From a virus, in the IMG/VR virus record IMGVR_UViG_3300013112_000473, positions 1 through 21,182 of that record: a DNA stretch of 21,182 nt, one strand, 5' to 3'. Below are positions 7,474 through 16,413 of this stretch, piece after piece. Positions within the stretch are counted from its first letter, which is position 1. Each line of letters begins with the position of its first letter. Position numbers and translations under genes: made by a program. The notes below the pieces were generated by a model that ran no database searches, was not told the origin of the DNA, and was given only the letters and a program-made list of their open reading frames with translations.

Positions 7474-8574
7474 CTACTTTACCCTTAATATAATTGTTTG
7501 ATCATTAATCCTCCCACTTGGAGTTTTCTTGTTTGCTTTGATTTGATCTATAAACTTGTCAATCTGCTTTGGGGTCTTCTTCATAATGACAGGAAGAACG
7601 TCAGCAGGTTTTCTGAGTTTTAGTACTCTCGAAAGTTCTTTATCAAACCCTCTAATGGTTGAACCAGACACTATCAATCCATCTCTGCTAGCAGAAACAA
7701 ATTGAGTGAGTTGTCGTGTCTTTGTATTAAACACATACAGATTCATTGAACCTGGAACCCTCATTGGATTTATTGAAGTTAGTTGATACTCGTTGTTTTC
7801 CTTTTGGAATTTCATCTTCTCAACCTGTTTGTCAGCTCCTCTACGCTTTGTAGTCGTAACTCGACGAGTGGCCTTCTTAGATGATTTAATCGACTCTACG
7901 GCCGTCTGAAACGATTTGAGAGTCTTAATTCGAGCTTTGATAGCTCTCATTCCAAGATGATTATAAGCTTCTGTTATCTGATCATCACTTTTAGATACAA
8001 ATGCTTCATAATCATATAGGTGTTCATCAATCCAAGCTTGAATTTCAACAAGTCTCTTGATCTCTTTAATCTTCATTTCTGTGTATAGATCAACAGTGGC
8101 TTTATTGTCTCCCTCATTCCACTTATCTTCTATAGCATACAGAACTGGCATAATCTCTTTGATATTCTTTTCACGTGCTCTTTCAGCAGGACTCTTTACA
8201 ATAGATACAACCTTTGGCTTACGAGCAGCTACGATCTCTCTTCCTGATTCAAGCAATTCCCCGAATCTTTCTTTAAGGAAATCTACAGCATGGGAATACA
8301 TACCAGTAAACTCATTACCAAGAGCTTTCCAGTAAACCATAGCAGCAATGTGTGAATACGTGAATTCGTACGATTCATTAGCAAGGATTGCCTTAGCATC
8401 GTCCTTACTATATTCTCTCTTGATGTAGTTCTTAATTATCTCGACGTATTCTTTGGTGTCGAGTTCTCTATGAACATACAATTTGAATTCCATGAACGAA
8501 CCATCAATAGGAGCGGCAGCAAGGCCGAACTTTTGACGAGCTTTTACTTTCTTTTTTCGTTTAGTCCCAGCCAT
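7474..8574 (-). CDS. Conserved T4-like protein of unknown function (366 aa)
   Basis: 366 residues from the ATG at 8574, chosen over an in-frame start 26 codons earlier because AGGAGAT lies 7 bases upstream and the protein then opens with the basic MAGTKRKKKVKARQK. Key stretches: GSFMEFKLYVHRELDTKEYVEIIKNYIKREYSKDDAKAILAN, then YSHIAAMVYW and FTGMYSHAVDFLKERFGELL. A long helical middle with a basic patch (SSKKATRRVTTTKRRG) and a C-terminal beta-rich part follow. A protein with this beginning is found beside gene 33 in marine T4-like phages. I know no function. The basic ends suggest nucleic-acid binding, which is inference only. Confidence 0.8.
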   Translation of the reverse strand: MAGTKRKKKVKARQKFGLAAAPIDGSFMEFKLYVHRELDTKEYVEIIKNYIKREYSKDDAKAILANESYEFTYSHIAAMVYWKALGNEFTGMYSHAVDFLKERFGELLESGREIVAARKPKVVSIVKSPAERAREKNIKEIMPVLYAIEDKWNEGDNKATVDLYTEMKIKEIKRLVEIQAWIDEHLYDYEAFVSKSDDQITEAYNHLGMRAIKARIKTLKSFQTAVESIKSSKKATRRVTTTKRRGADKQVEKMKFQKENNEYQLTSINPMRVPGSMNLYVFNTKTRQLTQFVSASRDGLIVSGSTIRGFDKELSRVLKLRKPADVLPVIMKKTPKQIDKFIDQIKANKKTPSGRINDQTIILRVK

Positions 8575-13077: not shown

Positions 13078-13242
13078 CTATATTTTCTCAATCAACATTG
13101 GCTTCACTTGCTTTTGTTGTAGCACCTGTTGCATCAGTCGAAGCTTCACTTGCTTTAGTTGTTGCTGTAGTAGCATCTCAGCAAACTCAGCACCAAAATA
13201 ATTCAACATTAAATCTACCTCTTTGCGCGTAATTTTTTTCAT
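13078..13242 (-). CDS. Chimeric small ORF: duplicated 5' end of the 12677-13066 gene joined to a repeat fragment (54 aa)
   Basis: The first about 22 residues (MKKITRKEVDLMLNYFGAEF) parallel the start of the downstream gene, including the leader and poly-A start region, with the residues between MKKIT and RKE missing. The remainder is Gln/Lys/Leu-rich (MLLQQQLKQVKLRLMQQVLQ). Read one frame over, the same DNA gives an Ala/Thr/Ser/Glu repeat with ATTKASEA twice, 14 residues apart, as in spacer parts of fibre proteins. It has its own promoter at 13280 and a weak GAGA ribosome site. It may be a broken relic or a translated small protein. Confidence 0.45.
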   Translation of the reverse strand: MKKITRKEVDLMLNYFGAEFAEMLLQQQLKQVKLRLMQQVLQQKQVKPMLIEKI

Positions 13243-13279
13243 AATATTTTCTCTTGTATTTTCTCAATCAACATAGCCC

Positions 13280-13564: not shown

Positions 13565-13732
13565 TCAAACAACATCAAAAACAACAATTCCATGGTCCTC
13601 GCAAACAGCGCGAAGCTTTTGAGCGACTACATCAACTCCATCCAGAAACGCTTCGTGCATTTCATTGATAGGACGTTCTTCTTCTTCTGCCCATTCCAAG
13701 ACAGACATCAAATCAGCGTGTAAAGTATTCAT
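13565..13732 (-). CDS. Small acidic hypothetical protein (55 aa)
   Basis: 55 residues, helical and acidic: LMSVLEWAEEEERPINEMHEAFLDG, then VAQKLRAVCEDHGIVVFDVV. CGGAGAA lies 9 bases before the ATG in the repeated leader, with its own promoter at 13773. First gene of a coupled trio with the two membrane miniproteins. Not recognised. Confidence 0.6.
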   Translation of the reverse strand: MNTLHADLMSVLEWAEEEERPINEMHEAFLDGVDVVAQKLRAVCEDHGIVVFDVV

Positions 13733-13772
13733 AATATATTCTCCGTTAGGTTTTTCTCAATCAACATAGCCC

Positions 13773-13852: not shown

Positions 13853-14299
13853 TTAGGCAAGAGCTTTCTTACAATTGAAGTAGTAAGTGCCAGCACCAGC
13901 TTTCGTCATACCAATCTCAGTCATAAACATCTCAATGTACTCTTTTCGAGCAAGACCAGGATTCTTCTTCATAATTGCAAGAGCTCGTTCCTTCTTAGTA
14001 GGACCCTTATTCTTACATTTAGCAATCAGTGCTTGGATTGCTGGGGTTCTGGCGGCGGCGGAGGCGGCAGCGCGAGATTTACGACGTCGCACATCACTGG
14101 CGGAGGCCTTGGCCTTAGCGCGAGATTTACGACCGATCTCAAGAGATCCTTCGTTAAGTGGAAGAGTAACAATTCCGCTACGCATCTTAATGTCAATGTA
14201 CTCATCATTAACACAAGTACAAACTCCCTTCATCACAACAGGAGCACCATTCTCAAGCTCATTAGCAGTATAAGTAACAACACGATTCATTGGATTCAT
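13853..14299 (-). CDS. Hypothetical protein with basic Ala/Arg/Lys linker and C-terminal phage domain (148 aa)
   Basis: 148 residues in three parts. Residues 1-57 are beta-rich (VVTYTANELENGAPVVMKGV, DEYIDIKMRSGIVTLP). Residues about 57-90 are a low-complexity basic linker with RKSRAKAKASAS and RRRKSRAAAS, built from near repeats and locally GC-rich compared with the window. Residues 98-148 form a helical domain, KERALAIMKKNPGLARKEYIEMFM..IGMTKAGAGTYYFNCKKAL, a pattern seen at the end of other phage proteins and suggestive of a DNA-binding helix bundle. Function unknown. Leader repeat with CGGAGAA. Confidence 0.6.
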   Translation of the reverse strand: MNPMNRVVTYTANELENGAPVVMKGVCTCVNDEYIDIKMRSGIVTLPLNEGSLEIGRKSRAKAKASASDVRRRKSRAAASAAARTPAIQALIAKCKNKGPTKKERALAIMKKNPGLARKEYIEMFMTEIGMTKAGAGTYYFNCKKALA

Positions 14300-14338
14300 A
14301 ATATATTCTCCGTTAGGTTTTTCTCAATCAATATGGCT

Positions 14339-14472: not shown

Positions 14473-14685
14473 CCGCTGAACCAAAATAATTACCCTCCAA
14501 TTATTGATGAGCCAATAACTCCCCTAATCATCGCCATTTTTAACTGACGATAACCTATTGATTAAAAAGGATTATTTTTACGGAGAAACAAGAGGTTAGA
14601 GCTCTTGCTCGAATTTGAGAGCTTTGACCAGTATCATTAGCCCTCAAAATTACGAAAAAACACTAACCTATTGTTTCAAAACGAA

Positions 14686-14713
14686 AAAACCCTTGGGTCT
14701 CCCCAAGGGTTTT
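14686..14713 (-). terminator. Strong terminator after the porin-like gene
   Basis: A 12-pair stem AAAACCCTTGGG/CCCAAGGGTTTT with a four-base loop, followed on the minus strand by TTCGTTTTG. T-rich on both flanks, so it may work in both directions. It lies 20 bases beyond the stop at 14734. Confidence 0.85.
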
Positions 14714-14733
14714 CATTTGAAAGCGTACTATTA

Positions 14734-15594
14734 TCAGAAAGTTAGAGTGATAGTAGCTTTGATGATGCCGTCTGCATCTTCTGTCTTAGAATACTCATAT
14801 TCCATAACACCTCTCTCAAGAGCTGCAACATATGTGTTCTTATCATTCTTATTGATAAGTTTACCAGTCACCCCACCAAGAGTTGAATCAGTTGTAAGAA
14901 CCAATGCTTTAACAGTAGATCCGGAATTAGCATCTGAAATATCACCAAGGATTCCATCATCCTGTGTAATGCCAGCTGTGTCTTCAACATCAATCAATAC
15001 ACCAGCAACGCCAAGACCACCAACATCAGTAGATACGGTACCACCCATATTAGTACCAACTGATGTCTTCTGATACTCACCATCTAGATCAACACCAGCA
15101 GCAGAAGTTGAAGCAGTTACAAAACGATCAGAATTAGTGATGTTTTGTACTTTAACATCAATTCCCCCTACTGTAAATGATGTATCTAAAGTGGCATTAC
15201 CATTTCCAGATGCTTGGCCAACTGTTACACCAAAATTCCCAACTGATGCAGATAATTCCATCTGGTTGGCAGCAGGAGCCTTCTTTTGAAAAAGTCCATG
15301 CCCGTTTCTTGTCTTGAATTTACCGCCTTTAAAATCTAGACCTTCAATACCAGCCTCAACATAACTTTCCTGTACAACTAGTGAATCACTACCGGTCTTA
15401 TTTTCGAGTTTAATTGTAGCTTTACCTGCTTCTGCAGATCCAACAATATTTAGATCTAAATCTTGTTCATATGTAGCAGCGCCTGGATTACCGTCTTGGA
15501 TAATACCTTCATATTCACCAGTAATAGAAATATCCGCGAATGCAGACGTAGTTAAAGCAGTTGCAGCAAACAACGCGATTAAATTTTTATTCAT
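14734..15594 (-). CDS. Outer-membrane porin-like beta-barrel protein with signal peptide
   Basis: 286 residues. A signal peptide MNKNLIALFAATALTTSAFA is cut before DISITGEYEG. The mature part alternates short polar/hydrophobic strands rich in Gly, Thr, Ser and Asp (DLNIVGSAEAGKATIKLENK; NFGVTVGQASGNGNATLDTS; VAALERGVMEYEYSK) and ends in TLTF, the terminal aromatic that the BAM complex recognises. There is no cysteine. This is the architecture of bacterial general porins, at the short end of their size range, and resembles porins of marine proteobacteria, but I cannot name a family. In a phage it could alter the infected cell's surface or permeability, or mask the receptor. The ribosome site is AGGAAA or GGGAA. 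The strong terminator just upstream isolates it from 15709-15906, so its expression may be separately controlled. Confidence 0.7.
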   Translation of the reverse strand: MNKNLIALFAATALTTSAFADISITGEYEGIIQDGNPGAATYEQDLDLNIVGSAEAGKATIKLENKTGSDSLVVQESYVEAGIEGLDFKGGKFKTRNGHGLFQKKAPAANQMELSASVGNFGVTVGQASGNGNATLDTSFTVGGIDVKVQNITNSDRFVTASTSAAGVDLDGEYQKTSVGTNMGGTVSTDVGGLGVAGVLIDVEDTAGITQDDGILGDISDANSGSTVKALVLTTDSTLGGVTGKLINKNDKNTYVAALERGVMEYEYSKTEDADGIIKATITLTF

Positions 15595-15614
15595 TTCCCA
15601 TTTTCCTATGTTAT

Positions 15615-15639
15615 TAAAAAAGCCCGTTTGAGGACGGGC
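15615..15639 (-). terminator. Terminator between the small secreted gene and the porin-like gene
   Basis: Minus strand GCCCGT-CCTCAA-ACGGGC (15622-15639) followed directly by TTTTTTAA. A near-ideal intrinsic terminator only 21 bases before the porin ATG, so it could attenuate the porin gene. Confidence 0.85.
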
Positions 15640-15657
15640 AACTCCTTTTTTTACATT

Positions 15658-15703
15658 ATTATATATACTACTTTTTATTGCAAAAATAATAAAAAAGTAG
15701 TAT
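15658..15703 (-). repeat. AT-rich inverted repeat with embedded -10-like box
   Basis: ATACTACTTTTTATT (15665-15679) pairs with AATAAAAAAGTAGTAT (15688-15703), one bulge, small loop. It starts 6 bases after the stop of 15709-15906. On the minus strand TATAAT (15658-15663) follows directly, without a good -35. It may be a second hairpin after the small gene or an operator for the porin gene. Confidence 0.6.
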
Positions 15704-15708
15704 TTTTG

Positions 15709-15906
15709 CTACTCTTTCCAATAACCATTGGATTCATTATATGCTTGAATATCTTCATCAGTCAAGTCGATGGTTGGGCAATCAACTATGGCATCATCTA
15801 CCACATACCATGTCCCTTCATACATGTCTTTAATATAATCTATTACATCTGCGGATGCGCCAAAAGAAGCTACAGTAAGTAGCGTAGTAAAAATAATAGT
15901 CTTCAT
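15709..15906 (-). CDS. Small exported protein (65 aa)
   Basis: 65 residues from the ATG at 15906, with AAGGAAA 7 bases upstream. The longer frame beginning 18 codons earlier is rejected because it would bury the signal peptide. The signal peptide is MKTIIFTTLLTVASFGASA. The mature part, about 46 residues, is acidic (DVIDYIKDMYEGTWYVVDDA, DLTDEDIQAYNES) with a single cysteine. Probably periplasmic. No family recognised. It starts 2 bases after the 16219 gene ends and is followed by two hairpins. Confidence 0.65.
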   Translation of the reverse strand: MKTIIFTTLLTVASFGASADVIDYIKDMYEGTWYVVDDAIVDCPTIDLTDEDIQAYNESNGYWKE

Positions 15907-15907
15907 T

Positions 15908-16219
15908 TTAATTTCCTTTATAACCGTAGTAATGAGGAGCAGATGCATAGTGATTATCATTTACTCCATTAAAACGAGAATTAGTGTCTCCATCAATGTC
16001 TGCATTCATTTTAGAATTACCAGAGCCAGAAGCATTGATAGTCATAGAAAAATTGCCTTCCATGTCAGCTCGGCCGTATCCCTTTCCATGGCCTCTACCA
16101 TCGAAAGTTCCATCAGTATCGTTAGTAAAATAACCATTAGTGTTGCTATCATTGCCAAAGAACGCATTAGCAGAACCAATAGTCAGGGTTAAAATTACAG
16201 TTGTTAAAAGTTTTTTCAT
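15908..16219 (-). CDS. Exported Asn/Gly-rich protein (103 aa)
   Basis: 103 residues from the ATG at 16219 (GGAGAA 6 bases upstream; another ATG two codons earlier is too close to this site). The signal peptide MKKLLTTVILTLTIGSANA precedes FFGNDSNTNGYFTNDTDGTF. The rest is Asn, Gly, Asp, Ser and Tyr-rich (GRGHGKGYGRADMEGNF, INASGSGNSKMNADIDGD), ending HYASAPHYYGYKGN. The composition recalls secreted glycine-rich proteins of sulfur-oxidising bacteria grouped as sulfur-globule-like, but the match is by composition only. A surface-matrix or structural role is plausible. First gene of the envelope cassette. Confidence 0.6.
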   Translation of the reverse strand: MKKLLTTVILTLTIGSANAFFGNDSNTNGYFTNDTDGTFDGRGHGKGYGRADMEGNFSMTINASGSGNSKMNADIDGDTNSRFNGVNDNHYASAPHYYGYKGN

Positions 16220-16270: not shown

Positions 16271-16275
16271 TAAAC

Positions 16276-16413
16276 CTATGTTGATATATTAAGTTCAGGA
16301 TTAAGCTTTTCTATCCATTCCTTTTCTTTTTTAATTAATATGTGTTTTGGTGTATTATTATCACATCGCTCTAATACGCTGAATACCAGCTCCGATGGAT
16401 TATCATTATACCC
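16276..16413 (-). pseudogene. Decayed GIY-YIG-like endonuclease fragment
   Basis: A 45-codon open stretch with no start codon, closed upstream by TAA. It reads NPSELVFSVLERCDNN, then KKEKEWIEKLNPELNIST. The pattern F.VLE.C....(L)...E..WI..L.P..NI is that of the C-terminal part of GIY-YIG nuclease domains. The GIY-YIG strands and the catalytic Arg are missing. The gap between a terminator and the secreted cassette fits a leftover from a homing event. The call rests on a short motif. Confidence 0.4.

Follow-up and report, generated by a model that had tools for sequence, protein, structure and literature searches.

Three consecutive genes of a viral contig encode a protein resembling sulfur globule proteins (SGPs), a small phage-specific protein and a porin-type barrel. 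With a confidence just short of even, we propose that they form a host-adapted auxiliary module by which a T4-like phage of sulfur-oxidizing Gammaproteobacteria would act on sulfur storage and outer-membrane permeability. The basis of this reading is homology, predicted fold and co-location, and the function is predicted. It is supported by the SGP likeness, the homology of phage and host barrels, the restriction of the barrel to Thioglobaceae among the genomes searched, the association of the cassette genes, the adjacency of dsrC, the refilling of the porin slot and the globules of strain EF1. A broader form of the proposal is held more tentatively: viruses of sulfur oxidizers could encode proteins like the coat of sulfur globules together with a loop-stripped barrel, thus rebuilding the granule as well as the cell surface across which sulfur is taken up.

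Organization of the window and of the three-gene block

The window, which is the full IMG/VR contig IMGVR_UViG_3300013112_000473 (21,182 bases), is identified by its gene content as a fragment of a T4-like phage. Family matches were obtained for head closure, DNA end protector, tail tube and gp32-type single-strand binding proteins, as well as for ATP-dependent ligase, PhoH and exonuclease. No tRNA and no Rfam family was detected in the window. It also lacks dsrC, the sequence at hand being a fragment of the phage genome, and this absence counts against the proposed module. The block comprises the following features:

15908..16219, minus strand: SGP-like gene (family A7), encoding an exported, Asn/Gly-rich protein of 103 aa
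15709..15906, minus strand: 65-aa gene (family A3), phage-only, product exported and with a C-terminal ESNGYW motif
14734..15594, minus strand: porin-type barrel gene (family A6), 286 aa, 18 predicted strands, C-terminal Phe
14685..14714, minus strand: intrinsic terminator 3' of the porin gene, 13-pair stem and T run
15622..15639, minus strand: terminator-like hairpin in the gap that separates the porin gene from the 65-aa gene, 28 nt ahead of the porin start codon
16453..16478, minus strand: 10-bp hairpin upstream of the block, read from the sequence and absent from the terminator scan

A GGAG ribosome site precedes the ATG of the 103-aa gene (at 16219) by 8 nt. The product of this gene starts with MKKLLTTVILTLTIGSANA, followed after the predicted cleavage site by FFGNDSN. 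The corresponding segments are MKTIIFTTLLTVASFGASA and DVIDY in the 65-aa protein, which ends in YNESNGYWKE, and MNKNLIALFAATALTTSAFA and DISITGEYEG in the 286-aa protein, which ends in ITLTF. Several of the analyses used a version of the 65-aa gene that lacks three residues (15709-15897), with no effect on their outcome. Predicted export signals of all three consist of a K/R-containing n-region, a hydrophobic core and an AxA-type cleavage site, as scored by an in-house heuristic and not by SignalP. The three successive leftward genes with signal peptides described in the initial annotation were thus confirmed as ORFs of 103, 65 and 286 aa with heuristic signals.

The same annotation considered the block to be isolated by terminators. 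Its borders were corroborated by the strong terminator at 14714-14685 and by the hairpin at 16478-16453, a probable terminator of the preceding gene, but the status of the block as one unit was not established. Because of the hairpin 15639-15622 inside the block, the three genes need not form one operon. The porin-gene leader (15592-15708) includes two hairpins, one of them this stem, and folds better than its shuffles (z -3.06). Since a promoter cannot be accommodated downstream of the 15639-15622 stem, an attenuator or read-through is possible.

A remnant at about 16275-16395 (...LERCDNNTPKHILIKKEKEWIEKLNPELNIST) resembles by eye the C-terminus of a GIY-YIG homing endonuclease. The broken nuclease fragment proposed at this side of the block was not substantiated, as Pfam gave no match and the best PHROGs hit (E 0.018) was to a family of unknown function.

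Likeness of the 103-aa protein to sulfur globule proteins

Sulfur globule proteins (PF17228; SgpA/SgpB type) have in common with the phage protein a Sec signal and a small Gly-rich mature part. They also share the GD/EGNFSMTINASG core type, and the profile likeness goes beyond composition. A signal peptide alone yields about 95% hhalign probability, as demonstrated by the comparison of the second exported family, A8, with SGPs; for this reason family A7 was compared with SGPs once more, using mature parts. The SGP profile scored 32.0 bits on the mature 103-aa protein, compared with 10.4 bits for the best of 1000 shuffles, and 21.9-39.6 bits on the mature parts of five relatives; across all six proteins, the highest score among 1000 shuffles of each was 13.0. 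Mature-only hhalign of A7 and SGPs gave a short match of 29 columns (probability 92). A search with family A7 in 25 sulfur-oxidizer genomes disclosed 12 matches at E < 0.02, 11 of them on PF17228 genes above the cut-off, and the reverse profile, from A7 to SGPs, detects only five of ten SGPs, those that are nearest.

The Pfam model PF17228 itself recognizes several phage relatives in their mature part (E 0.00037-0.003), with scores under the curated cut-off. In bits, the window protein scored 13.7 and its phage relatives at most 21.7, so that the cut-off of 26.7 was not reached, a point against the proposed module. Because of this cut-off and of the reverse test (5/10), the protein is labelled SGP-like with no family membership implied; judged by profile comparison, it is a remote relative of sulfur globule proteins and not a filed PF17228 member. 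It further differs from them in being Asn/Asp-rich, in lacking the Ala/Pro-rich tail of the cellular proteins and in being phage-encoded. An assignment to TrAA12 (Pfam) was rejected, since the match was partial, short and Gly/Asn-rich (E 0.0016, 17 bits against a cut-off of 30.9).

No relative of the 103-aa family was found in the Thioglobaceae genomes searched, and PF17228 matched none of 83 Thioglobaceae genomes in a search run without a positive control. The donor of the SGP-like gene may therefore be another lineage, or divergence may be too great for detection, and host and donor of the module are not fully aligned, which also counts against the proposal.

The porin-type barrel and its chromosomal counterpart

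The AlphaFold model of the 286-aa protein, built on a 26-sequence alignment, comprises 18 strands (mean pLDDT 82.8, pTM 0.69). Foldseek related it to the porins OmpM1 (E 2e-8) and OmpU (E 1.7e-7), and VIA-align to C. jejuni MOMP (Z 20.4) and to OprD/Occ porins (Z about 20) over about 265 residues. Identity to MOMP/OprD-class porins is 6-13% in structure alignments, and sequence searches in Pfam, NCBIfam and the PDB returned nothing useful, including no match of the window protein to Porin_4. The product of 14734-15594 is accordingly modelled as an 18-strand outer-membrane porin-type barrel with a MOMP/OprD-class fold, differing from MOMP/OprD/Occ porins by much shorter loops and by sequence (about 10% identity). 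The model and the structure search uphold the porin-like barrel ending in Phe that had been proposed from the letters of the sequence. A DUF4352 match on this protein was rejected as noise (E 0.22).

In viral contigs, a search with the barrel family alignment recovered 40 loci, most at 43-62% identity, while tblastn against named phage genomes gave no match. At one of the related loci (L009:8001-8857) the barrel gene is broken into two ORFs (79 and 143 aa) that are intact as a single gene in the near-identical L006/L007, which represents either natural variation or an assembly error.

Among cellular genomes, the barrel profile matched 42 of 83 Thioglobaceae (best E 9e-29) and none of 25 other sulfur oxidizers. 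This overturned an earlier genome scan with porin motifs, which had found none. Phage and host barrels align in hhalign over 284 columns (probability 99.9, E 6e-36), including the signal peptide and the C-terminal Phe. By these alignments the phage barrel is a full-length homologue of the SUP05/Thioglobaceae chromosomal barrel, as exemplified by L167:4936-5934 of EF1, with which it shares signal-peptide style and terminal Phe. In the genomes read, the host gene has mutM-type and YgfZ-type genes in its vicinity, at a chromosomal position that is conserved; the phage gene is not at such a locus and sits among phage genes. Phage barrels make up one clade separate from the host copies (support 0.995).

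Precursors are 282-315 aa long in phages and 270-359 aa in hosts, the phage form being usually shorter, mostly in predicted outer loops. Both termini of porins face the periplasm, and outside loops were assigned by this rule. Mapped on the model, outer loops have a median total of 63 residues in phage barrels versus 107 in host barrels, whereas strands amount to 184 residues in both and periplasmic turns to 19 and 23, respectively. A second, independent alignment placed internal host insertions in outer loops (207 residues), periplasmic turns (4) and also within strands (121). Since two of 16 host barrels have the short length of the phage form, loop loss in phages is a trend and not a rule.

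These differences bear on the best rival reading, receptor masking by a loop-trimmed porin. Here the phage barrel would dilute or replace the host barrel, with the small exported proteins as accessories, and would either prevent competing phages from adsorbing or keep progeny from sticking to debris. The homology along the whole length, the shorter predicted outer loops at equal strand content and the occurrence of the barrel alone in many phages argue for such surface remodelling or superinfection exclusion. So does the EF1 barrel, whose 34.3-kDa precursor coincides with the reported 34 kDa of the most abundant EF1 surface protein, termed "S-layer"; judged by mass, the two may be the same protein. 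The short host barrels and the 121 inserted residues within strands speak against it, and it leaves the SGP-like and A8 genes and the dsrC neighbourhood unexplained. We regard it as rather unlikely, yet compatible with the sulfur-storage module.

Association of the cassette genes in viral lineages

Relatives of the 65-aa protein occur in other viral contigs at 40-51% identity, with no credible match in 83 Thioglobaceae genomes. The family is present in six non-redundant viral lineages, and in all six it is accompanied, on one strand and at a distance of no more than about 0.7 kb, by both a porin gene and a gene of the SGP-like or A8 kind. The trio thus recurs elsewhere, which was the test set for it by the initial annotation, and its co-occurrence exceeds chance. 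One further locus (L048:2822-3019) encodes a 65-aa exported protein with an NGYWD motif near its end, located between a barrel gene and a DsrC-like gene; it is possibly a distant relative of the window protein.

In a wider sample of 53 non-redundant viral lineages, a porin gene occurs together with an SGP-like or A8 gene within the available stretch in 15, and in each of these the genes share one strand. As the loci were found through the same families, these counts express association and not prevalence. In many phages, no globule-like gene accompanies the barrel within the available stretch, which counts against the sulfur-storage module.

The window-type SGP-like gene is combined with a porin of another type (type B) in five of six lineages. 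Examples in sister cassettes are:

L011:3413-4249: type B porin
L018:7029-7889: type B porin, Porin_4 by Pfam
L181:8210-9046: type B porin, Porin_4 by Pfam

Type B was found in none of 83 Thioglobaceae genomes. Since the slot is filled by unrelated porin types, the cassette appears to need a pore and not one particular barrel.

The second exported family, A8 (DNGIFAYNGYDFFDPRW), was found at 47 viral loci. Among 83 Thioglobaceae genomes, 51 contain homologues of it, and these usually belong to tandem clusters of genes for secreted, Asn/Gly/Trp-rich proteins. A8 was rejected as an SGP family because its hhalign match is confined to the signal peptide region. EF1 contains four A8-type genes in a row, and "four putative sgp genes" were reported for this strain (PMC6509183); the two sets agree in number. 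The tandem clusters of small secreted Asn/Gly/Trp-rich proteins at L147-L152 in SUP05-family genomes match no Pfam family and are possible sulfur globule proteins unlike PF17228.

The variability of the cassettes could also be explained by capture of host genes without a strong common purpose, at a point between phage core genes that tolerates insertion, through shared hosts and recombination. Gene content and order vary by lineage, many lineages have one gene only, and in the window the internal hairpin sets the porin gene apart, all in agreement with such capture. However, the constant company of the 65-aa family, the refilling of the porin slot by an unrelated type and the conservation of intact frames at 43-62% identity across many viral contigs make it improbable. 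The earlier view of a host-derived or moron-type envelope module is borne out insofar as the module is mobile and at least partly host-derived, its barrel being homologous to the host outer-membrane barrel.

dsrC neighbourhood, probable host and proposed role

DsrC-family genes above the cut-off were detected in 10 of 46 related records. They adjoin module genes in L194, L182, L186, L030/L006, L044, L048 and L058, with the order A8-DsrC-porin in L194 and SGP-like-DsrC in L182. Both two-cysteine and one-cysteine forms are present. For the one-cysteine DsrC-like form, a function in sulfur oxidation is doubtful (PMC4164917), which is a further point against the module.

The nearest cellular relatives of DsrC of a related phage are from Thioglobaceae (77-82% identity). 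Considering the restriction of the barrel to this family among the genomes searched, together with the related contigs, the host of the window phage is most likely a member of SUP05/Thioglobaceae. The cultured SUP05 strain EF1 has visible periplasmic globules (PMC6509183).

Sulfur phages of SUP05-type hosts with dsrC, dsrA or sox genes are already known (PMC8190135, PMC4164917), and dsrC also lies beside cassettes related to that of the window. The genes listed in these papers are sulfur-oxidation enzymes and carriers, and neither porins nor phage globule proteins came up in the texts searched. A viral porin beside amtB is known as well, namely OmpL next to glnK-amtB (PMC8115048). It is virus-encoded and from oxygen-poor marine water, as in the present case, but Bacteroidetes-derived and in a nitrogen-uptake context; the passages on it describe no globule-like partners. 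No description of phage sulfur globule proteins or of the barrel family was found in the open-access literature, which is weak evidence of novelty as most subscription papers fall outside the search scope.

For the proposed module, the SGP-like protein would be exported by Sec and would join or alter the protein envelope of periplasmic sulfur globules, with the 65-aa protein as its putative phage-specific partner. The porin would hold the outer membrane open to small solutes during shutdown of host synthesis. Together, and with phage DsrC in related phages, they would feed stored or incoming sulfur to the reverse-Dsr pathway and keep the cell powered until lysis. The initial annotation had placed the effect of the block at the cell surface. 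The shorter predicted outer loops usual in phage barrels agree with this part; the SGP likeness, the secreted-cluster homologues in SUP05 and dsrC beside sister cassettes shift the emphasis to periplasmic sulfur storage. The module suggests that viruses of sulfur oxidizers remodel, beyond the surface of the infected cell, also the periplasm in which it stores sulfur; if true, they would affect sulfur storage and uptake in a major dark-ocean carbon fixer.

Export signals and a position among small phage genes would also suit proteins that stress the envelope for lysis and release, with no role in sulfur storage. The likeness to cellular globule proteins and barrels points instead to retained cellular roles, and we consider this explanation very improbable.

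Additional features of the window and related contigs

An exported Cys-containing family (GPSGTYxCKDVKTCWLLY) was observed near the cassette in several contigs (L016:8788-9102; L041:6131-6385 and 7790-8098). On one barrel-carrying viral contig, the exported product of L051:3089-3415 contains the haem-binding motif CIGCH and is probably a small c-type cytochrome.

In addition, the window contains a 44-nt element in three copies (13234-13277, 13727-13770 and 14294-14337) with 68-95% identity among them. Each copy spans the leader and the start of one of three small minus-strand genes, and the repeat probably serves early phage genes as a common promoter/leader.
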